Position numbers and translations under genes: made by a program
Part shown: in pieces, positions 8,916 to 48,228 of the stretch
How the letters are laid out: every line of letters begins with the position of its first letter
Position numbering within the stretch: position 1 is the stretch's first letter
The notes under the pieces: model-generated
Database searches by the model: none
What the model was told of the DNA's origin: nothing
The model's input: only the letters and a program-made list of their open reading frames with translations
Source: Janthinobacterium silvisoli
GTDB taxonomy: Bacteria; Pseudomonadota; Gammaproteobacteria; Burkholderiales; Burkholderiaceae_D
Length of the DNA: 64,000 nt
NCBI RefSeq assembly: GCF_014200725.1
Contig: NZ_JACHCL010000001.1
Coordinates: 1,364,001 to 1,428,000, forward strand
Direction: 5' to 3'

Positions 8916-8942
8916 GGGGTCTGACCCGGTGGGTCAGACCCC
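8916..8942. repeat. 27-bp palindromic repeat (copy A of the RAYT-linked family)
   Basis: GGGGTCTGACCC (8916-8927), a 3-base loop GGT, then GGGTCAGACCCC (8931-8942) form a perfect 12-bp inverted repeat. Similar palindromes occur at 25500, 29456 and 47541. It sits between the convergent PRC-barrel and hrpA genes and could also act as a terminator hairpin (AGTTTTAT follows on the + strand). Confidence 0.85.
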
Positions 8943-24595: not shown

Positions 24596-25492
24596 ATGAA
24601 TATTTACGAGATCAAGGTTGTCAGCGAGCAAGCCATGCAAGTGGGCGAATGCCCGCTGTGGCATGCCAGGGAAGCGGCCCTGTACTGGGTCGATATCGAT
24701 GGACGCGCCGTGCACCGCTTGCATCCAGCCAGTGGCCAGCAGCAACGCTGGGATATGCCGACCGAACCGTCGGCACTGGCGATCAACGCTGGCGGCGGCT
24801 TGATCGTGGCCTTGCGCAGCGGCTTCGCGCACCTCGATACCAAGACGGGCAGCCTGGCGGAAATCGCCCCGGCGCCGTTCGACATGGCCACTACCCGCTT
24901 CAACGATGGCAAGGTGGATCCGGCGGGCCGTTTCTGGGTCGGCACGATATTCGAGCCGCGCAGCTCGGCATCGGCAGAAATGTTCGTGCTGGAAAAGGGC
25001 AATGTGCGCAAGGTCTGGTCGGGCGGAATGACGGTCTCGAATGGCCTGGGCTTCAGCCCGGACCAGCACACCATGTACCACGCCGATACCACCACCCACC
25101 GCATCGACCGCTTTGATTTCGACGCCGCCACGGGCGCCATTTCCGAACCGCACGCCTTCCAGCGCTTTTCTACCGATAAAAAAGCGGCGGACTACGGCGG
25201 ACGCCCCGATGGCGCAGCCGTCGATAGTGAGGGCAATTACTGGTCAGCCATGTTTGAAGGCGGCAGGATTTTGCGCTTCGCGCCCGATGGTGAATTACTC
25301 GATGAAATCACCTTGCCCGTACGCTGCCCGACCATGGTCACCTTTGGCGGCCCGGACTTGCGCACCTTGTACATTACCAGCGCCAGCCACAACCGCTCGG
25401 CAGAAGAAATCGCCGAATACCCACTGACGGGCCATGTACTGTCGGTGCGCGTGGATGTGGCGGGGCAGCTGGAAACGGCTTACCAGGCATAA
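24596..25492 (+). CDS. SMP-30/gluconolactonase-family lactonase
   Basis: A 298-residue six-bladed beta-propeller enzyme of the SMP-30/Gnl/LRE family. Metal ligands expected in the family are visible: Glu in GECPLWHAREAALYWVDIDG, Asn in TTRFNDGKVDPAGRFWVGT, Asn in NGLGFSPD and Asp in RPDGAAVD. There is no signal peptide, so it acts in the cytosol on sugar lactones. AAGAAGGGG before ATG 24596 supports the start. Located right after pgi and near zwf, and with no DevB-type 6-phosphogluconolactonase in the cluster, it may hydrolyse 6-phosphogluconolactone or free gluconolactone; that is inference. Confidence 0.88.
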   Translation: MNIYEIKVVSEQAMQVGECPLWHAREAALYWVDIDGRAVHRLHPASGQQQRWDMPTEPSALAINAGGGLIVALRSGFAHLDTKTGSLAEIAPAPFDMATTRFNDGKVDPAGRFWVGTIFEPRSSASAEMFVLEKGNVRKVWSGGMTVSNGLGFSPDQHTMYHADTTTHRIDRFDFDAATGAISEPHAFQRFSTDKKAADYGGRPDGAAVDSEGNYWSAMFEGGRILRFAPDGELLDEITLPVRCPTMVTFGGPDLRTLYITSASHNRSAEEIAEYPLTGHVLSVRVDVAGQLETAYQA

Positions 25493-25499
25493 AACTACC

Positions 25500-25565
25500 G
25501 GGGTCAGACCCGCCGGGGGAATGCTCTCCAATGGAGAGCATTCCGATCCCGCAGGGACTGACCCC
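25500..25565 (+). repeat. 66-bp nested palindrome (copy B, long form)
   Basis: The outer arms GGGGTCAGACCC (25500-25511) and GGGACTGACCCC (25554-25565) differ from perfect pairing at one base. Inside them, GGAATGCTCTCC (25518-25529) and GGAGAGCATTCC (25533-25544) form a perfect 12-bp hairpin with loop AAT. It lies between convergent genes. The reverse complement of copy C (29456) has the same length and about 80% identity. Confidence 0.9.
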
Positions 25566-25607
25566 AGCTCTTGCTTTAGGGGCTAAAAATTGAACAAAAG
25601 CGCAATC

Positions 25608-26561
25608 TCAACGCGCCAGCACCTTGCGTATCGTATCGGCTAATTCCGCCGCGACAAACTTGGCCACATAACCGTCCGCCCCCACGCCCTTGACGTGGTC
25701 TTCATTGGTCGAGCCCGTCAATGATGAATGGATCACCACCGGGATGCTGGCAAAGCGGCCATCGTTCTTGATATTGCGGGTCAGGGTAAAGCCATCCATT
25801 TCCGGCATTTCGAGGTCGGTCAGCACCAGCGCCACCTTGTCGGCGGCGGTCTTGCCTTCCTGGGCAGCCTGGGTCGAGATCGCTTGCAAGCGATCCCATG
25901 CTTCCTTGCCCGTCTTGGTCATGATAAAGGGCACGCCCATCGCTTCCAGGCCTTTTTCGATCAAGGAGCGGGCCAGCAGGGAATCGTCGGCGGCCAGGAT
26001 CACGGCGCCGGCCGGCAAGCGCACTTGCGGGCCGATGCTGTGCTGGTCGACGTCCGGCTCGCCGGAAGGCAAGACGTTGCGCAGGATTTGTTCCACGTCC
26101 AGCACTTGCGCCAGCCGCGTCTTGTCCGTATCGCCGTCCAGGCGCGCGATGCTGGTGATCAGGCCACCGCCCACCGTCGATTCGGCCGACAGCACCTGAT
26201 TCCATTCCAGGCGCACGATTTCATCGACTTCTTCCACCGCAAAGGCCTGCGTCGAGCGGGCAAACTCCGTCACCATCAATATCTTCAAGCCATTGCTCTT
26301 GCAGCCTACCGCCATCGGCAAGTCGATCACGGGCACGATCTGGCCACGGATATTGACCACGCCCAGCATGTGCGGATGCGAGCCAGCCACAGCCGTGATG
26401 ACCGGCATTTCCATGATCTCGCGCACCTTGAAGACATTGATGCCAAACAGCTCGCGGCTGGTGGAATGCTCGCTGGTGCCCAGTTTGAACAGGAAGAGTT
26501 CGAATTTATTATTGCCGGTCAGGCTGGTGCGTTCATCGACATCTTGCTGCATTGAATTCAT
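25608..26561 (-). CDS. cheV: Chemotaxis coupling protein CheV (CheW-receiver fusion)
   Basis: A 317-residue fusion. The CheW-like domain (about residues 15-165) has LFGINVFKVREIMEMPVI and MLGVVNIRGQIVPVIDLP. The receiver domain (about 185-315) has LAADDSLLARSLIEKGL, the phospho-acceptor Asp in ALVLTDLEMPEMDGFTL and the Lys in GYVAKF. CheV couples receptors to CheA and adapts by phosphorylation. I chose ATG 26561, with AAGGGG 6-8 bp upstream, rather than the long upstream extension, which covers promoter sequence: ATTATA at 26617-26622 is a perfect -10 on the minus strand. It stands alone between sugar genes, unusual for a chemotaxis gene. Confidence 0.93.
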   Translation of the reverse strand: MNSMQQDVDERTSLTGNNKFELFLFKLGTSEHSTSRELFGINVFKVREIMEMPVITAVAGSHPHMLGVVNIRGQIVPVIDLPMAVGCKSNGLKILMVTEFARSTQAFAVEEVDEIVRLEWNQVLSAESTVGGGLITSIARLDGDTDKTRLAQVLDVEQILRNVLPSGEPDVDQHSIGPQVRLPAGAVILAADDSLLARSLIEKGLEAMGVPFIMTKTGKEAWDRLQAISTQAAQEGKTAADKVALVLTDLEMPEMDGFTLTRNIKNDGRFASIPVVIHSSLTGSTNEDHVKGVGADGYVAKFVAAELADTIRKVLAR

Positions 26562-27005
26562 GGTATCCCCTTGAGTGGAGCCGGCGCTGATGACGCAATA
26601 ACATGGTATGAATTTAATTATACGGATTTTTAATTTCTGAAAAGCCACTTTACGCGCGAGTGAGTCACTGTGTCTGCATTTCTTGACTTGCTTGTTGCTG
26701 CAACGCAAATCGTTGCATCGTGCATCAGAAAGATTCCTGGACCGGCATGATTTCCTTGAAAAACAGGCCACAGACACGAGCGACGCGCAGGCCAGGCGAA
26801 GGGCATATAATGGCTATGCAGCAGGCTTCCACAGAGTGGCCATAATGTAGTAAAATTTCTTGCAATTGCCACTTCCACGTAGTAAATTTACACCACTGAA
26901 TTTATAGCGTTTAACCGTAGTAGCAACAGACAGCAACACTCAGCAACAGACTGGCCCATCCGGTCGGCCCCTCCGGCTCTCTTACTTTTGCGACGATACT
27001 CACTT
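26562..27005. promoter_or_regulatory. Control region between divergent cheV and zwf
   Basis: This 444-bp gap has no convincing gene. The cheV side is AT-rich and holds its -10 box (26617-26622, minus strand). The zwf side carries two HexR-like boxes (26846-26892). The stretch of about 26640-26840 shows nothing I recognise. Confidence 0.6.
26846..26892 (+). promoter_or_regulatory. Two tandem candidate HexR operators of zwf
   Basis: TGTAGTAAAATTTC (26846-26859) is identical over 14 bases to the edd site. CGTAGTAAATTTACA (26878-26892) is a second, more symmetric copy. Their starts are 32 bp apart, about three helical turns, so two bound dimers would lie on the same DNA face. They are 114-160 bp before the zwf start. 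Confidence 0.72.
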
Positions 27006-28478
27006 ATGGCTCTTACCGATTTTGACCTGGTCCTGTTTGGCGGCAGCGGCGATTTAGCAATGCGTAAATTACTGCCTGCCATGTATGCACGCGACGTTGC
27101 CAACGATTTGCCGCCGACGGCGCGCATCATCTGCGTGGGCCGCCAGGACAGCGGCCAGGACGCGTTCCTGAAAATGGTGGAAACCAATTCCCGCCCGCAT
27201 ATCAAGGCCAGCACCCTGAATGCGGCCACCTGGAGCCGCTTTTGCGCACGCATCGTCTACGTGTCGCTCAACGCCAGCGACGCCAAGACCTATGCCCCGC
27301 TGATCGAAGCGCTGCGCGATGGCAGCGACCTGACCCGCGTTTATTACCTGGCGACGCCGCCGCATCTGTTTGCGCTGATTTGCGACAACCTCGAAGAAAA
27401 TGGCCTCGTCACGCCTAACTCGCGCGTGGTGCTGGAAAAACCGCTGGGCCGCGACCTGGCCAGCGCCAAGCAGATCAATGCCGAAGTGGGCAAGGTATTC
27501 CAGGAATCGCAGATCTACCGTATCGACCATTACCTGGGCAAGGAAACCGTACAGAACTTGCTGGCTTTGCGCTTCGGCAATATCCTGTTCGAGCCGCTGT
27601 GGCGCCGTGAATGGATTTCCGACGTGCAAATCACCATCGCTGAAAAACTCGGTGTGGGCAACCGCATGGGTTACTACGACACATCCGGCGCGCTGCGCGA
27701 CATGTTGCAAAACCACTTGCTGCAATTGCTGTGCATCGTCGCCATGGAACCGCCGACCTCGATCGCGCCAGACGCCGTGCGCGATGAAAAACTGCAAGTA
27801 CTGCGTTCGCTGAAAAAATTCACGCCGACCACGCTGTCGCAAAACATCGTGCGCGGCCAGTACCGCGCCGGCCACGTCGATGGCGCGGCCGTGCCGAGCT
27901 ACCGCGACGAACCCGATGCACCGGCCCAGTCGCGCACCGAAACCTTTGTGGCGATGAAGGCGGAAATCGATACCTGGCGCTGGGCCGGCGTGCCGTTCTA
28001 CCTGCGCACCGGTAAACGCATGGCCGACAGCCTGGCTGAAATCGTCGTGCGCTTCAAGCAGATTCCGCACTCGATCTTCAACCAGCCGACCTCGAGCTTC
28101 CAGCCGAACTGCCTGGTGATCCGCTTGCAACCAGATGAAGGCCTGAGCCTGAACCTGATGGCAAAAACGCCCGGCGACGCCATGCGTTTGAAACCCGCCG
28201 AACTGGAACTCGATTTCCGCGAATCGTTCAAGAGTCCGCGCATGGATGCCTACGAGCGCCTGCTGCTGGACGTCTTGCGCGGCCAGCTGACCCTGTTCAT
28301 GCGCGGCGACGAACTGGAAGCGGCCTGGGAATGGGTCGAGCCTATCCTCGAAAACTGGGAACAGAACGAAAGCGCCCCGCTGCCATACACCTCGGGCACC
28401 TGGGGCCCGGCAGCAGCGAGCGCCCTGATCGGCCGCGATGGGCTGCAGTGGCGTGAAGAAGCTTTGCCGGAAGACTAA
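27006..28478 (+). CDS. zwf: Glucose-6-phosphate 1-dehydrogenase
   Basis: A 490-residue enzyme oxidising glucose-6-phosphate to 6-phosphogluconolactone with NAD(P)+. The cofactor-binding segment is LFGGSGDLAMRKLLPAMY; the active-site signature RIDHYLGKETVQNLLALRF is intact. VLEKPLGRDLASAKQIN and PFYLRTGKRM are also typical. I chose ATG 27006 (MALTDFDLVLFGG); TTG 26988 is possible, and neither has a strong ribosome-binding site. It is followed on the same strand by hexR and tal, with two HexR-like boxes upstream, so feedback through KDPG is likely. Confidence 0.95.
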   Translation: MALTDFDLVLFGGSGDLAMRKLLPAMYARDVANDLPPTARIICVGRQDSGQDAFLKMVETNSRPHIKASTLNAATWSRFCARIVYVSLNASDAKTYAPLIEALRDGSDLTRVYYLATPPHLFALICDNLEENGLVTPNSRVVLEKPLGRDLASAKQINAEVGKVFQESQIYRIDHYLGKETVQNLLALRFGNILFEPLWRREWISDVQITIAEKLGVGNRMGYYDTSGALRDMLQNHLLQLLCIVAMEPPTSIAPDAVRDEKLQVLRSLKKFTPTTLSQNIVRGQYRAGHVDGAAVPSYRDEPDAPAQSRTETFVAMKAEIDTWRWAGVPFYLRTGKRMADSLAEIVVRFKQIPHSIFNQPTSSFQPNCLVIRLQPDEGLSLNLMAKTPGDAMRLKPAELELDFRESFKSPRMDAYERLLLDVLRGQLTLFMRGDELEAAWEWVEPILENWEQNESAPLPYTSGTWGPAAASALIGRDGLQWREEALPED

Positions 28479-28492
28479 CCTGCAAGGCAAGA

Positions 28493-28516
28493 AGCCTGTC
28501 CATTCACGGACAGGCT
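28493..28516 (+). terminator. Hairpin between zwf and hexR
   Basis: AGCCTGTCC (28493-28501) and GGACAGGCT (28508-28516) form a perfect 9-bp stem with a 6-base loop. GTTACTCG follows rather than a T run, so it is more likely an attenuator or RNA-stabilising hairpin than a full terminator. Confidence 0.5.
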
Positions 28517-28566
28517 GTTACTCGAATTGACGTCTCCAAAAAAAACCAACTCAAAAGACTAACCTG

Positions 28567-29421
28567 ATGCTGCTTGACTCCATCCGCACCCAGCTCGATT
28601 CGCTCTCCAAGTCGGAGAAGAAGGTCGCGCTGGCCGTGCTAGACCAGCCTAACCAGACGGTCAGCCAGAACATCACGGCGCTGGCGAAAAGCGCGCAGGT
28701 GTCGGAACCGACAGTGGTGCGCTTTTGCCGCACGCTCGGTTATGACGGCTGGCATGAGTTCAAGCTGAAGCTGGCGCAGGGCCTGGCCCTGGCCATGCCG
28801 GGCGCGAACGAGCAGCCGGCGCAGGACGACCTGGCGGCAGACCTGGTCAACAAGATCTGCAGCCGCTCGATCAATACCCTGCTCGACCTGCGCAACAACC
28901 TGAACCCGGAAGCGATCCAGCGCGCGCTCGACATCCTGTCGCGCGCCAGCAAGATCGAATTCTATGGCCAGGGCACGTCGGGCATCGTGGCAGCCGATGC
29001 GCAGCACAAGTTCTTCCGTTCTGGCGTGCCGACCGTCGCCTATAGCGATCCGAATATCCACAGCATCGCCGCGGCCCTGCTGCGCAGCGGCGACGCACTG
29101 GTCGCCATCTCGCAGCGCGGCAACAGCCCGGCCCTGGTGCGCTCCGTGAAACTGGCGCGCCGCGGCGGCGCCGACATCATCGTGCTGGCTCCATCGGGCA
29201 CGCCGCTGGCCGACCTGGCCACAGTGCTGATCCCGATCGACCTGATCTTCAATACCGACCCCTACACCCCAATCTCTGCCCGCCTGGCCTACCTGGTGGT
29301 GATCGACGTGCTGGCCGTGGGCCTGGCCCTGCAGCGGGGACCGGAATTCCGCAAGAAGATGCAGAATGCGCAGAAAGCGCTGCAAGAGTTTGATATGCAA
29401 TTTGATTCATTTATTGGCTGA
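28567..29421 (+). CDS. hexR: HexR, RpiR-family regulator of central sugar metabolism
   Basis: A 284-residue RpiR-family regulator. The N-terminal helix-turn-helix domain (about residues 1-77) contains LSKSEKKVALAVLDQPNQTV, ALAKSAQVSEPTVVRFCRTLG and YDGWHEFKLKLAQGLA. The C-terminal SIS domain (about 120-270) contains IEFYGQGTSGIVAADAQHKF and VAISQRGNSPALVRSV, which in HexR binds KDPG and releases the operator. The position between zwf and tal, and the operator-like boxes before edd, pgi and zwf, support HexR rather than another RpiR member. It has no clear ribosome-binding site, and ATG 28567 fits the family start. Confidence 0.92.
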   Translation: MLLDSIRTQLDSLSKSEKKVALAVLDQPNQTVSQNITALAKSAQVSEPTVVRFCRTLGYDGWHEFKLKLAQGLALAMPGANEQPAQDDLAADLVNKICSRSINTLLDLRNNLNPEAIQRALDILSRASKIEFYGQGTSGIVAADAQHKFFRSGVPTVAYSDPNIHSIAAALLRSGDALVAISQRGNSPALVRSVKLARRGGADIIVLAPSGTPLADLATVLIPIDLIFNTDPYTPISARLAYLVVIDVLAVGLALQRGPEFRKKMQNAQKALQEFDMQFDSFIG

Positions 29422-29455
29422 GCGGTTATAGTTCGTGAAGTAGCAACAGAAATCT

Positions 29456-29521
29456 GGGGTCAGTTCCTGCCGAATCGGAACGTATCCCATTGGGATGCGT
29501 TCCCCCGACGGGTCTGACCCC
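29456..29521 (-). repeat. 66-bp nested palindrome (copy C, long form, inverted)
   Basis: The outer arms are GGGGTCAGTTCC (29456-29467) and GGGTCTGACCCC (29510-29521). The inner hairpin is GGAACGTATCCC (29477-29488) with GGGATGCGTTCC (29492-29503) around loop ATT, one G-T-type mismatch. Its reverse complement aligns end to end with copy B; most differences fall in the inner stem and keep pairing. It lies between hexR and tal, just before the tal -10 box. Confidence 0.9.
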
Positions 29522-29539
29522 GGCCTTAACCACTTTCAG

Positions 29540-29545
29540 TATAAT
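29540..29545 (+). promoter_or_regulatory. Candidate -10 box of a leaderless tal transcript
   Basis: A perfect TATAAT sits exactly 7 bases before ATG 29553, the same spacing as at argA. No ribosome-binding site precedes the ATG. A -35 hexamer at the usual distance would fall at the right end of the 66-bp repeat. Confidence 0.55.
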
Positions 29546-29552
29546 TTCCGGC

Positions 29553-30488
29553 ATGAATCAATTAGAACAGCTCAAACAATTCACTACCGTGGTGGCCGAC
29601 ACCGGCGACTTCCAATCGATACAGGCGTACACGCCGCGCGATGCGACGACGAATCCTTCGCTGATTTTGAAAGCAGTGCAAAAGGATGAATACAAGCCAC
29701 TGCTGGAAAAGGCCGTGCGCGACCGTCCTGACGCCTCCACCGGCGACATCATCGACCATTTGCTGATCGCTTTTGGTCTGGAAATCCTGAAAACCATTCC
29801 TGGCCGCGTGTCGACCGAAGTCGATGCGCGCCTGTCGTTCGACACGGCAGGCACGGTGGCCAAGGGCCGCCAGCTGATCGCGCTGTATGAACAGGCCGGC
29901 GTGGCGCGCGAGCGCGTGCTGATCAAGATCGCCGCCACCTGGGAAGGCATACGCGCCGCCGAGATCCTGGAAAAGGATGGCATCCACTGCAATATGACCC
30001 TGCTGTTCTCGCTGGCCCAGGCCATCGCCTGCGCCGAAGCGGGCGCCAAGCTGATCTCGCCTTTCGTCGGCCGCATCTACGACTGGTACAAGAAATCGAC
30101 GGGCATCGATTATGAAGGCGCCGAAGATCCGGGTGTGCAATCGGTCAAGCGCATCTACAATTACTACCGCAAGTTCGGCTACGACACCGAAGTGATGGGC
30201 GCGAGCTTCCGCAACACTTCGCAAATCCTGGAACTGGCCGGCTGCGACCTGCTGACCATCAGCCCCGACCTGCTGCAAAAGCTGGCCGACAGCGATGCGC
30301 CAGTGGCACGCAAGCTGAGCGCCGATACGGCGCCAGGCGCCAACATCGTCAAGATTTCGCTCGATGAAAAAGACTTCCGCTTCATGCTCAATGAAGATGC
30401 GATGGCGACCGAAAAACTGGCCGAAGGCATACGCGCTTTCTGCGTCGATTCGGGCAAGCTGAAACAGATGATCGCCGCGCTGCGCTAA
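29553..30488 (+). CDS. tal: Transaldolase
   Basis: A 311-residue class I transaldolase (TalB type) of the non-oxidative pentose phosphate pathway. The start [20 protein letters not shown], the segment [14 protein letters not shown] with its catalytic Asp, the Schiff-base Lys in [18 protein letters not shown] and the phosphate-binding [13 protein letters not shown] are all standard. I chose ATG 29553; the longer frame from 29490 runs into the repeat. A strong terminator follows. It lies downstream of zwf and hexR but probably has its own promoter. Confidence 0.95.
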
Positions 30489-45231: not shown

Positions 45232-47520
45232 ATGAGTCTGACCCCAGCCGACACGACTTCTGCAGCACTGCCGCCCCTGGCCCCGCGCAAGGCGGCAAAA
45301 AACCAGGGCGCCAGTGCGCCGGGCGCAGTCACGCCTGCCACCGCCGCTACATTAGCCCCTGCTGCTCCCGCTCCTGCACTCGGGGTCGCCTCCGTCAGCC
45401 ACCTGGCCGACAAACTCGCCGAATACCTCTCGCCCGCTGACCTGAAAAAGGTCAAGGAAGCGTATCGTTTTTCTGACGAAATGCACCTGGGCCAGATGCG
45501 CCGTTCGGGCGAACCGTATATCTCGCACCCGATTGCCGTCGCCGAAATCTGTGCCGACTGGAAACTCGACGCGCAAGCCATCATGGCCGCCCTGCTGCAT
45601 GACGTGATGGAAGACCAGGACGTCAAGAAAGACGAGCTGATCGAGCGTTTCGGCTCGCCCGTCGCACAACTGGTCGACGGCCTGTCGAAACTGGAAAAAA
45701 TCGAATTCCAGAGCCAGATCGAAGCGCAGGCGGAAAACTTCCGCAAGATGCTGCTGGCCATGGCGTCCGACGTGCGCGTGATCCTGATCAAGCTGGCCGA
45801 CCGCCTGCACAATATGCGCACGCTGGATTTCATGACGGCGGCCAAAAAACGCCGCATCGCCAGCGAAACCATGGAAGTGTATGTGCCGATTGCGCACCGC
45901 CTGGGCCTGAACAATATTTACCACGAGCTGCAAGACCTGTCGTTCTCGCACTTGTATCCCATGCGCTACCGTACCCTGGCGAAAGCCGTCAAGGCAGCGC
46001 GCGGCAACCGGCGCGAAGTGGTCAACAAGATCATGGAAGCGGTAAAGAGCACGTTTTCCATGGCAGAAATCGATGCTGAAGTGACGGGGCGCGAAAAAAC
46101 CCTGTTCGACATCTATAAAAAGATGCGCAGCAAGCATTTGTCGTTCTCGCAAGTACTGGACGTGTACGGCTTCCGCGTGGTGGTCGACAGCTTTTCGGAC
46201 TGCTATGTCTCGCTGGGCACCCTGCACAGCCTGTACAAGCCGATGCCGGGCAAGTTCAAGGATTACATCGCGATTCGCAAGCTGAATGGCTACCAGTCGC
46301 TGCACACGACCGTCATCGGTCCTTACGGCACGCCGGTCGAATTCCAGATCCGCACGCAGGAAATGCATCGCACGGCCGAGTCCGGCGTGGCGGCGCATTG
46401 GCTCTACAAGAGCGGCGAAACCAACCCGTCCGACTTGCAGCAGCGCACTCATGCCTGGCTGCAATCCTTGCTCGACATCCAGCAACAGACGGGCGACTCG
46501 GCCGAGTTCCTCGAACACGTCAAGGTCGACCTGTTCCCCGATTCCGTGTACGTGTTTACGCCGAAATCGAAGATTATCGCCCTGCCGCGCGGCGCTACCG
46601 CCATCGACTTTGCCTATTCGATCCACACGGGCATCGGCGACCAGACCGTGGCCGTGAAAATCAACAACGAAACCTCGCCGCTGCGCACCGAGCTGCACAA
46701 TGGCGACATCGTGGAAATCATCACCGATTCCTCGTCGCGGCCCAGCCCGACCTGGCTGTCGTTCGTGCGCACCGGCAAGGCCCGTTCGGCCATCCGCCAC
46801 CATTTGCGCACGATCAACCTGCCCGAATCGATCGCCCTGGGCCAGCAATTGCTGTCGCAGGCGCTGCAAACACTGAACATCGATGCCGAATTGCCGCAGC
46901 CGCTGATCGAACGCCTGCTCAATGAATCGAGCGCCAATTCGATGGATGAGCTGTACGCGGACATCGGTATCGGCAAGCGCATGGCCACCCTGGTGGCGCG
47001 CCACATCTTTGGCTTGATCGGCGGCGAAGCGGCCAGCATGCCGGTGGAACACAATAGCGGCAGCGAACTGGACCCGGTCACCATTTGCGGCACCGAAGGC
47101 GTGTCCGTGCAGCTGGCGCCCTGTTGCCTGCCGATTCCTGGCGACCAGATCATCGGCCAACTGCGCCGCGACCAGGGCTTGCTGGTCCACACCAGCGACT
47201 GTTCGCAAGCCAAACGCCAGCGCACCAAGGAACCGGACCGCTGGATCGCTGTCCGCTGGGGCACCGAACTGAACCGCCGCTTCGACTGCCGCATCAAAGT
47301 CCTGATCAATAGCGAACGCGGCATTTTGGCCCGTGTCGCTGCCGAAATCGGCGAATCGGACGCCAACATCATCTACGTGGGCATGGACGAAGACAAGGAC
47401 AACGTCCTCGACCAGCTACGCTTCACCGTACAAGTCAAGGACAGGGTCCACCTGGCGGCGCTGCTGCGCAATGTGCGCAGAGTGGCCGGCGTGAATCGCA
47501 TCTTGCGCGAACGCAATTAA
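45232..47520 (+). CDS. spoT: Bifunctional (p)ppGpp synthetase/hydrolase (RSH, SpoT type)
   Basis: A 762-residue long RSH protein. An Ala/Pro-rich N-terminal extension of about 50 residues precedes the HD hydrolase domain (SGEPYISHPIAVAEI, ALLHDVMED, LIKLADRLHNMRTLD, intact metal ligands). The synthetase domain follows (RKLNGYQSLHTTVIGP, EFQIRT), then TGS (RGATAIDFAYSIHTGIGD), the conserved-cysteine region (LAPCCLPIPGDQIIG) and a C-terminal ACT domain. The intact HD motif indicates hydrolase activity, so I use spoT. ATG 45232 is the start. It is the last gene of gmk-rpoZ-spoT. Confidence 0.94.
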   Translation: MSLTPADTTSAALPPLAPRKAAKNQGASAPGAVTPATAATLAPAAPAPALGVASVSHLADKLAEYLSPADLKKVKEAYRFSDEMHLGQMRRSGEPYISHPIAVAEICADWKLDAQAIMAALLHDVMEDQDVKKDELIERFGSPVAQLVDGLSKLEKIEFQSQIEAQAENFRKMLLAMASDVRVILIKLADRLHNMRTLDFMTAAKKRRIASETMEVYVPIAHRLGLNNIYHELQDLSFSHLYPMRYRTLAKAVKAARGNRREVVNKIMEAVKSTFSMAEIDAEVTGREKTLFDIYKKMRSKHLSFSQVLDVYGFRVVVDSFSDCYVSLGTLHSLYKPMPGKFKDYIAIRKLNGYQSLHTTVIGPYGTPVEFQIRTQEMHRTAESGVAAHWLYKSGETNPSDLQQRTHAWLQSLLDIQQQTGDSAEFLEHVKVDLFPDSVYVFTPKSKIIALPRGATAIDFAYSIHTGIGDQTVAVKINNETSPLRTELHNGDIVEIITDSSSRPSPTWLSFVRTGKARSAIRHHLRTINLPESIALGQQLLSQALQTLNIDAELPQPLIERLLNESSANSMDELYADIGIGKRMATLVARHIFGLIGGEAASMPVEHNSGSELDPVTICGTEGVSVQLAPCCLPIPGDQIIGQLRRDQGLLVHTSDCSQAKRQRTKEPDRWIAVRWGTELNRRFDCRIKVLINSERGILARVAAEIGESDANIIYVGMDEDKDNVLDQLRFTVQVKDRVHLAALLRNVRRVAGVNRILRERN

Positions 47521-47540: not shown

Positions 47541-47567
47541 GGGGTCAGACCCGCCGGGTCTGACCCC
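47541..47567. repeat. 27-bp palindromic repeat (copy D) overlapping the RAYT 3' end
   Basis: GGGGTCAGACCC (47541-47552), loop GCC, and GGGTCTGACCCC (47556-47567) pair perfectly. The stop codon and last six codons of the transposase gene on the minus strand are read from this palindrome. It also lies 20 bp after the spoT stop. Confidence 0.9.
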
Positions 47568-48228
47568 GGATTTCTGCTGGCGGCTGGCGGCTGGCTTCGG
47601 CAATGCGGCGCAAAAAATCCTGATCCCCGATGGCAAATTCCGCATTCAACGCTACACGCAATTGCGTCACGGTATGCATTGGCAAATCTTTCTGAAACAA
47701 GAACTGATAAGCTTGCTGCCGTTTATGTGCATCATGCCCCAGCCGTAAATACACTGAATGTGGCGAAAGCAACTCGTCGCTCATCCCTTGCGCATTAGCT
47801 CGATAGCTGGACCAACGATACTGCGCTGGCAAAGCAACCATGCCAGCCCTGACGGGGTTAAGTTCAATATAGCGCTGGCAGATCAAGAGATAACGCTCAC
47901 CTTGCACCAGGCAAGACTTGTAGCGGCCTTCACACAAGCTCCCGCTACGCCCATAACGCCAATTGAAATATTGCGTATATCGCTGATTCAGCGCTTTCAT
48001 CAATGCCGATGGATGTGTGGTGTCCTGAGCGGAGAGCAACAGATGCACATGGTTGCTCATCACAACATAAGCATGTAGTTCGCATGGCGCAATAGCCAGG
48101 CAACTATGCAGATAGTCGAGATAGCGCCGGAAATCTTGAGCATCAAGGAAACACACTTGCCGATTGCTTCCGCGCTGTATCACATGCAGCGGAACACCCG
48201 GCAAGACAATGCGCAAACGACGGGCCAT
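47545..48228 (-). CDS. RAYT-type Y1 (HUH) transposase
   Basis: A 227-residue REP-associated tyrosine transposase-like protein. The N-terminus MARRLRIVLPGVPLHVIQRG is the usual RAYT opening; the HUH metal site is HVH at 60-62 in HAYVVMSNHVHLLLS; the catalytic Tyr is expected in NQRYTQYFN (Tyr84 or Tyr87). GRSGSLCEGRYKS and RYIELNPVRAGMV are further family hallmarks. RAYTs are single-copy, domesticated relatives of IS200/IS605 transposases that nick REP palindromes. Here the last codons (GQTRRV and stop) lie inside a 27-bp palindrome, and similar palindromes occur at three other sites in the window, supporting a repeat/RAYT pair. It separates spoT from greB. Confidence 0.88.
   Translation of the reverse strand: MARRLRIVLPGVPLHVIQRGSNRQVCFLDAQDFRRYLDYLHSCLAIAPCELHAYVVMSNHVHLLLSAQDTTHPSALMKALNQRYTQYFNWRYGRSGSLCEGRYKSCLVQGERYLLICQRYIELNPVRAGMVALPAQYRWSSYRANAQGMSDELLSPHSVYLRLGHDAHKRQQAYQFLFQKDLPMHTVTQLRVALNAEFAIGDQDFLRRIAEASRQPPAEIRGQTRRV

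Follow-up and report, generated by a model that had tools for sequence, protein, structure and literature searches.

What kind of element are two 66-bp repeats, each built as a palindrome within a palindrome, and why do their inner stems differ in ways that keep them paired? The question is raised by a 64,000-nucleotide stretch of Janthinobacterium silvisoli (NCBI RefSeq assembly GCF_014200725.1, contig NZ_JACHCL010000001.1, positions 1,364,001 to 1,428,000 of the forward strand; hereafter the window), which holds one copy at 25500–25565 on the plus strand and a second, inverted copy at 29456–29521 on the minus strand. We give a probability of about 80% to the reading that both repeats belong to the REPINs, a class of non-autonomous mobile elements composed of two inverted repetitive extragenic palindromic (REP) sequences, here proposed to be moved by an enzyme resembling the REP-associated tyrosine transposases (RAYTs). 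A transposase whose gene is also in the window probably spread them. The initial annotation of this DNA knew of no named element with such a design; in this it was wrong, since the anatomy is that of a REPIN and compensatory changes in REPINs have already been published (PMC3116915).

Anatomy of the two repeats

Copy 1 opens with the 8-bp head GGGGTCAG, continues with hairpin 1 (CCC-GCC-GGG), a 12-bp inner stem with an AAT loop, and hairpin 3 (TCCC-GCA-GGGA), and closes with the head complement CTGACCCC. A gap-free alignment with the inverted copy 2 leaves 13 of 66 positions different (element positions 14, 23, 26, 27, 28, 36, 37, 38, 39, 41, 49, 51, and 57). The inner stem takes nine of these 13. 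Five of its pairs are changed: four are altered on both sides and remain Watson-Crick (TA>CG, TA>AT, CG>TA, and TA>CG), and the fifth becomes a C-A mismatch. Hairpin 3, in the right arm, shows one change that keeps the pairing (CG>TA) and one that breaks it (CG>GG). Chance is excluded as the source of this likeness because the next-best ungapped match of copy 1 within the window, copy 2 aside, has 32 differences. The positions and equal length of the two copies, the hand count of roughly 13 differences after inversion, and their concentration in an inner stem that largely stays paired had all been reported in the initial annotation and proved correct. Its further statement that the outer arms are conserved applies to the heads (8 bp each) and to the greater part of the left arm; the right arm carries three differences.

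Stem pairing across the genus

The suggestion that pair-keeping changes point to a conserved folded form gains strength when the comparison is extended to the whole genus. We selected 116 genus copies regardless of their inner stem and used 111, five not being fetched. Exactly 66 nt was the length of 81 of the 111, and the others measured 63–70 nt (the pattern allowed 59–71). Among the 66-nt copies, 73 are distinct, with 798 of 876 inner-stem cells and 277 of 292 hairpin 3 cells Watson-Crick paired. Shared descent was limited by taking one copy per flanking-sequence group, which gave 54 copies from 55 groups after removal of L209, whose stem is shifted. In this alignment, 97.6% of 1431 pair cells are paired, compared with 87.5% in shuffles, and 141 cells carry two-sided changes, compared with 28.0 (sd 6.9) in shuffles, none of 500 being as high, and with 11–21 in slid controls. 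Relatedness alone can push sequences above shuffles, and the slid controls retain relatedness. Because two-sided changes exceed both kinds of control across the genus, the population keeps a foldable form.

Mutation rather than selection could also produce paired changes, if template switching in a quasi-palindrome copied one arm onto the other; the covariation would then be uninformative on whether the fold is needed, and the element could still be a REPIN. One-step copying would give the pattern found among comparisons of distinct stems with exactly two stem differences: in 12 of 32, both fall within one base pair, versus 4.3% expected. The same comparison for hairpin 3 gives 15 of 23, versus 14.3% expected, and a less reduced count gave 22 of 33. 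Other observations run against such copying. Across 15 groups of orthologous copies, 19 of the 22 listed pair changes are one-sided, so stems are not quickly repaired in place; the loop stays asymmetric, reading AAT or AGT in 67 of the 73 distinct copies; and 46 of 66 distinct inner stems have fewer than 12 Watson-Crick pairs. These points are all weak: single- and two-sided steps in the inner stem stand at 8:1 at orthologous sites versus 10:12 between sites (Fisher p = 0.045, from small and non-independent counts), and the same contrast in hairpin 3 is not significant (p = 0.59). We regard template switching as an unlikely account of the pairing. The step counts hint that stems regain their pairing in the lineage that multiplies and are not guarded site by site.

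Predicted folds of the element

Five copies of the 66-bp type in the source genome have both exact heads. Folded as single-stranded DNA (ssDNA), they are more stable than shuffles (z −2.4 to −7.4), with 0, 0, 0, 4, and 0 of 200 shuffles as stable as the respective copy. The two window copies (L034 and L035) each fold into one long nested hairpin, in which hairpins 1 and 3 pair with each other, at −28.4 kcal/mol for copy 1 (z −7.4) and −19.2 kcal/mol for copy 2 (z −3.8). In the other three (L033, L038, and L039), the minimum-energy fold is four-armed and consists of an 8-bp closing stem, hairpin 1 (CCC-GNC-GGG), a central hairpin, and hairpin 3. The small hairpins 1 and 3 are alternative states, and energy alone does not settle the fold. 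Hairpin 3 varies by two-sided changes in the 54-copy alignment, which speaks for the four-armed form being among the states that are used.

Copy number and distribution

A covariance model, R1, was built from these five copies, including both window copies, which match it at 94 bits (copy 1) and 90.9 bits (copy 2). In the source genome (5.9 Mb, 16 contigs), nine places match R1 at E ≤ 3e-8, the five builders among them, and a 27-bp short form, GGGGTCAGACCCGCCGGGTCTGACCCC, is present in 30 exact copies. Across the genus, R1 has matches at E ≤ 0.01 in 31 of 40 genomes, and 24 of 40 have copies with exact heads and the start of the left hairpin. The initial annotation had named two outcomes that would speak against a conserved fold, a genome with only these two copies or many copies whose stem changes are uncompensated; a search of the genome and its relatives returned the nine strong matches and 31 genomes given above, many of the stem changes are compensatory, and the observation was not refuted. 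At the level of the family, searched with stricter filters than the genus, 13 of 195 genomes match at E ≤ 1e-4, every one in Janthinobacterium (1 of 44 genera), and the 66-bp element was found at that threshold in none of the 43 other genera sampled. R1 counts include both strands throughout.

A second long interior type, of 64 bp, has the same heads (GGGGTCAG(C/A)CCCCCGG...CTGACCCC) and is present in three copies in the source genome (L036, L037, and L040; G000:C1:1846214-1846277, C1:2239703-2239766, and C9:96903-96966). The window also holds a variant 27-bp short palindrome, GGGGTCTGACCCGGTGGGTCAGACCCC, at 8916–8942 on the plus strand, and a near-perfect single head, GGGGTCAGACTC, at 45234–45245 on the minus strand, where it overlaps the first codons of an open reading frame (ORF) at 45232–47520.

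A RAYT-like transposase in the window

The proposed mobilising enzyme is a 227-residue Y1 transposase encoded at 47545–48228 on the minus strand, with an NHVH motif and an invariant Tyr84, the putative catalytic tyrosine. One of the 30 exact short forms (GGGGTCAGACCCGCCGGGTCTGACCCC, 47541–47567, plus strand) lies at the 3' end of this gene and covers its stop codon. The protein scores above the cut-off of PF01797 (E 2.8e-12); we call it RAYT-like because its score falls below the cut-off of the NCBIfam RAYT model. An AlphaFold2 model (pLDDT 87.9) finds its best fold match in the PDB in 4er8, the structure of a RAYT with a bound REP hairpin (E 7.5e-9; TM 0.53 normalised to query length and 0.72 to target length), with the ISDra2 and IS608 transposases next; a sequence search against PDB chains returned nothing at E ≤ 0.001. 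The predicted Y1 fold is thus closest to known RAYTs and carries a histidine-hydrophobic-histidine (HUH) motif with a tyrosine.

All 40 genus genomes have a homologue of the transposase. In 21 of them it is near full length (50–100% identity), and all 21 sit between the same two genes, which from sequence motifs we take to be spoT-like and greB-like. A second homologue (clade 2, ~36% identity) is present in most of the 40 genomes and has DQLH in place of the clade-1 NHVH; from two aligned loci (L128 and L130), its HUH motif looks degenerate. Twelve named loci were inspected: related heads (GGGGACAGACCAC, GGGGTCAGACCC, and GGGGTCAGAGCAC) lie near the transposase relatives at L320, L321, L337, L344, L356, L384, and L392, from the genera Thauera, Pseudoduganella, Janthinobacterium, Nitrosospira, Nitrosomonas, Duganella, and Massilia, and no related head was found at L325, L351, and L378.

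Head type and transposase clade

The near full-length homologues divide into groups whose adjoining palindromes have different heads. In clade 1a (62–100% identity), a GGGGTCAG palindrome stands at the 3' end of the gene in nine of nine loci, with the second head mismatched in two. In clade 1b (50–54% identity), the 3' end carries GGGGTCGG in ten of ten loci; L119 has one head only, and L120 has a complete 66-bp element. Two loci at 56–58% identity have GGGGACAG doublets on both sides of the gene. Overall, the palindrome is restricted to the 3' side in 19 of the 21 clade-1 loci and occupies both sides in two (L116 and L118).

Genome-wide counts of short forms follow the same division. Median numbers of A-head short forms are 30 in genomes with clade 1a, 8 in those with clade 1b, and 0 in the 21 others, and the corresponding medians of G-head short forms are 9, 16, and 0. 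The log ratio of A-head to G-head short forms differs between clades 1a and 1b (p = 7e-4), and R1 matches, counted on both strands, are more numerous where clade 1a or 1b is present (19 genomes) than in the 21 genomes that have neither (p = 2e-7), both tests ignoring host phylogeny.

Flanking sequences

The conserved unit seems to be larger than 66 bp, as its sequence surroundings have a degenerate signature in common over ~10 bp on each side. Across 74 flank clusters (148 ends), 67 ends are preceded by CT and 47 by CC, against backgrounds of 3.9% and 5.2%. The commonest state of a site is one CT and one CC (36 of 74); CT at both ends is found in two and CC at both ends in four. Aligned in the direction that this rule sets, the 36 sites give the approximate reading AGnnAAAaGCT [element] GGnnTTnnnCTG, and the element lies in either orientation relative to the flanks at 18 sites each. 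Short forms in the source genome have the CT/CC state at 10 of 16 sites. The left flank of copy 1 (25490–25499, plus strand) ends in CC and is its CC end, and the right flank (25566–25576, plus strand; AGCTCTTGCTT) ends in CT on the other strand and is its CT end. For copy 2, the flank at 29446–29455 (plus strand) ends in CT, in the context AACAGAAATCT, and the flank at 29522–29531 (plus strand) starts with GG. The flanks may be a target sequence or the true ends of the element.

Two ideas about the flanks were rejected. Pairing of the flanks as a further stem fails, as their complementarity is below that of shuffled sites at flank positions 1 (0.34 vs 0.50) and 3 (0.05 vs 0.30). The expectation that GG-headed elements have CC-only flanks, drawn from the published effect of a GTAG-to-GTGG change (PMC8266576), is unsupported: clade-1b short forms still have a CT flank (by eye).

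Long, short, and empty states at orthologous sites

We compared orthologous places for the two window copies, 30 loci each. At site 25500, the window's own 66-bp copy is accompanied by six loci with the 64-bp type (one of these 63 bp), one with a changed-head short palindrome, one with a single head, 20 with no head, and one not resolved. At site 29456, where ten loci were not resolved, the window's 66-bp copy is matched by the 27-bp form in G018, a variant 27-bp form in G015, and various partial or changed heads elsewhere; in G009 the flanks are present with no element and three extra bases. Of 16 short-form sites compared in the source genome, four share their surroundings on both sides with a 66-bp copy elsewhere, and a fifth does so on one side. 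The 3–60 bases adjoining the element do not all align at these matched sites, so they represent the same intergenic place and not a proven same base. Judged from these sequences, long and short forms may be exchanged for each other, may turn into one another by decay, or may have inserted more than once at favoured places.

Could the element instead act in place as RNA, as a terminator, an mRNA-stabilising hairpin, or a small RNA, and be kept for that? Extragenic position is established for the two window copies, one flanked by an SMP-30-type gene and an opposite-strand CheW/receiver gene, the other by an RpiR/SIS regulator gene and a transaldolase gene, a setting in favour of such a role. (The transaldolase start is taken as the ATG at 29553; a mechanically called ORF that starts with the TTG at 29490 would share bases with copy 2.) At site 25500, between convergent genes (window 25493–25607, orthologues L266–L286), a terminator-like hairpin (aaaaagcgccgg..ccggcgcttttt) was seen by eye in 19 of the 20 headless loci, the 20th being printed only in part, and was seen neither in the window's own copy nor in the seven loci that hold a complete element, 64-bp or short. 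This distribution, too, speaks for an RNA role. Against it, the element is missing from most orthologous sites, its orientation relative to the CT/CC flanks is evenly balanced, and an Rfam covariance-model search of window positions 25000–30000 gave no match at E ≤ 1. Stem mismatches, examined for a strand preference, gave a non-significant excess of G-T over A-C (34:22, p = 0.14). On balance an RNA role is improbable. The initial annotation had left RNA and ssDNA side by side; the mismatches do not decide between them, and ssDNA is favoured because the linked gene is RAYT-like, an enzyme type reported to cut single-stranded REPs (PMC8266576).

That the copies spread as passengers of a larger inverted-repeat element (a miniature inverted-repeat transposable element, or MITE) moved by another transposase is very improbable and already largely weakened, for although 11 of 20 fetched G006 copies (L141-L143, L147, L148, and L151-L156) lie, by eye, inside a ~195-bp palindrome whose ends resemble TAATGCCGTTCAGTTA, as if a MITE had a REPIN in its interior, the other nine are without it and the 74 flank clusters have only ~10–12 bp in common on each side.

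Relation to known REPINs and RAYTs

Returning to the REPIN reading, the element has two inverted REPs with a spacer of set length, conserved ends around a variable hairpin-forming spacer, and, with exceptions, a cognate RAYT-like gene with like REPs beside it. The REPINs of Pseudomonas fluorescens SBW25 are likewise two inverted REPs with conserved ends and a less conserved spacer, which form a single-strand hairpin, show compensatory changes, and are linked to a RAYT gene (PMC3116915). They differ from the Janthinobacterium element in its heads, its 12-bp near-perfect inner hairpin, its four-armed minimum-energy fold in three of five copies, and its flanks of one CT and one CC. The published RAYTs of Stenotrophomonas and other bacteria are Y1 transposases with adjoining REPs that coevolve with them, so that enzyme and REP diverge jointly and orthologues keep their place, as here, whereas those genes lie between two inverted REPs (PMC2817692) and most clade-1 loci have the palindrome on the 3' side only.

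The predicted fold of the window enzyme is that of the TnpA-REP proteins of E. coli, Stenotrophomonas, and Marinomonas (structure 4er8), which cut single-stranded REPs (PMC8266576). The E. coli enzyme is reported to cut at CT, the commonest flank dinucleotide of the Janthinobacterium element, where the window enzyme may cut as well; in Marinomonas, the change from GTAG to GTGG shifts the cut to CC (PMC8266576). Unlike those systems, the Janthinobacterium element has no GTAG at the hairpin foot, and its GG-headed short forms keep one CT and one CC flank (by eye). Because its head is GGGGTCAG or GGGGTCGG, we do not file it as a GTAG REP. GTAG- and CGTC-tagged palindromic repeats also form inverted dimers with structured stem-loop spacers, some of them within longer palindromes (PMC3733652); their tags differ, and a term search of that text found neither Janthinobacterium nor GTCAG.

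A literature search, conducted largely without subscription papers, found no published description of the Janthinobacterium 66-bp family. The element appears to be a genus-level member of the REPINs, a new family of a known design. It is distinguished by its non-GTAG heads, by a near-perfect inner hairpin for which a four-armed fold is the alternative, by the CT/CC rule, and by the long, short, and empty states at shared places.

Discussion

Several observations weigh against assigning the repeats to REPINs moved by the window enzyme. No movement of the element was observed. The transposase reaches 58.7 bits (E 5.7e-16) against the NCBIfam model REP_Tyr_transpos (NF047646), under its 80-bit cut-off. 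Inverted REPs do not flank the window gene (L107) on both sides: its palindrome of two inverted heads is at the 3' end, and no head with one mismatch or fewer lies within ~1 kb of the 5' end. The heads are not GTAG. The match between copies and enzymes is imperfect, as 12 of the 21 genomes without a clade-1a or clade-1b gene still have 2–18 R1 matches, G003 and G011, which have a relative at 56–58% identity, have none, five of nine clade-1a genomes hold 9–23 G-head short forms, and the clade-1b genome G004 holds 29 A-head short forms. The statistics on heads and on R1 also ignore host phylogeny, and the latter span both strands. Part of the copy number in G006 derives from the larger palindrome, and we set that number aside as a sign of RAYT activity.

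If the repeats are REPINs, we infer that ssDNA is the active form. When exposed as a single strand, for example during replication, the element would fold into a hairpin with the 8-bp stem GGGGTCAG/CTGACCCC at its base. Its heads and hairpins would be recognised by the RAYT-like enzyme of the window, or by a relative, which would cut at the CT or CC next to each head and either move the element or replace it. Only foldable copies would multiply, and the stems would stay paired.

A more speculative proposal, which we hold to be doubtful, is that the heads serve as fixed exchange points at which a RAYT-like enzyme, cutting one strand with a polarity set by the CT end and the CC end, swaps whole 66-, 64-, and 27-bp interiors at standing chromosomal sites, so that spread would be cassette replacement as much as new insertion. 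If so, the one-base head change from AG to GG, which accompanies a different RAYT clade at one chromosomal locus, would provide a natural switch of specificity.

Janthinobacterium offers a compact test system for RAYTs and REPINs, with two RAYT clades at one chromosomal locus, heads that differ by one base per arm, a definite CT/CC flank rule, and orthologous places that have a long, a short, or no element. With its many two-sided stem changes, the genus also provides clear material for deciding if hairpins stay paired through selection or through template switching, and the family shows unusually clearly that a folded shape is kept.

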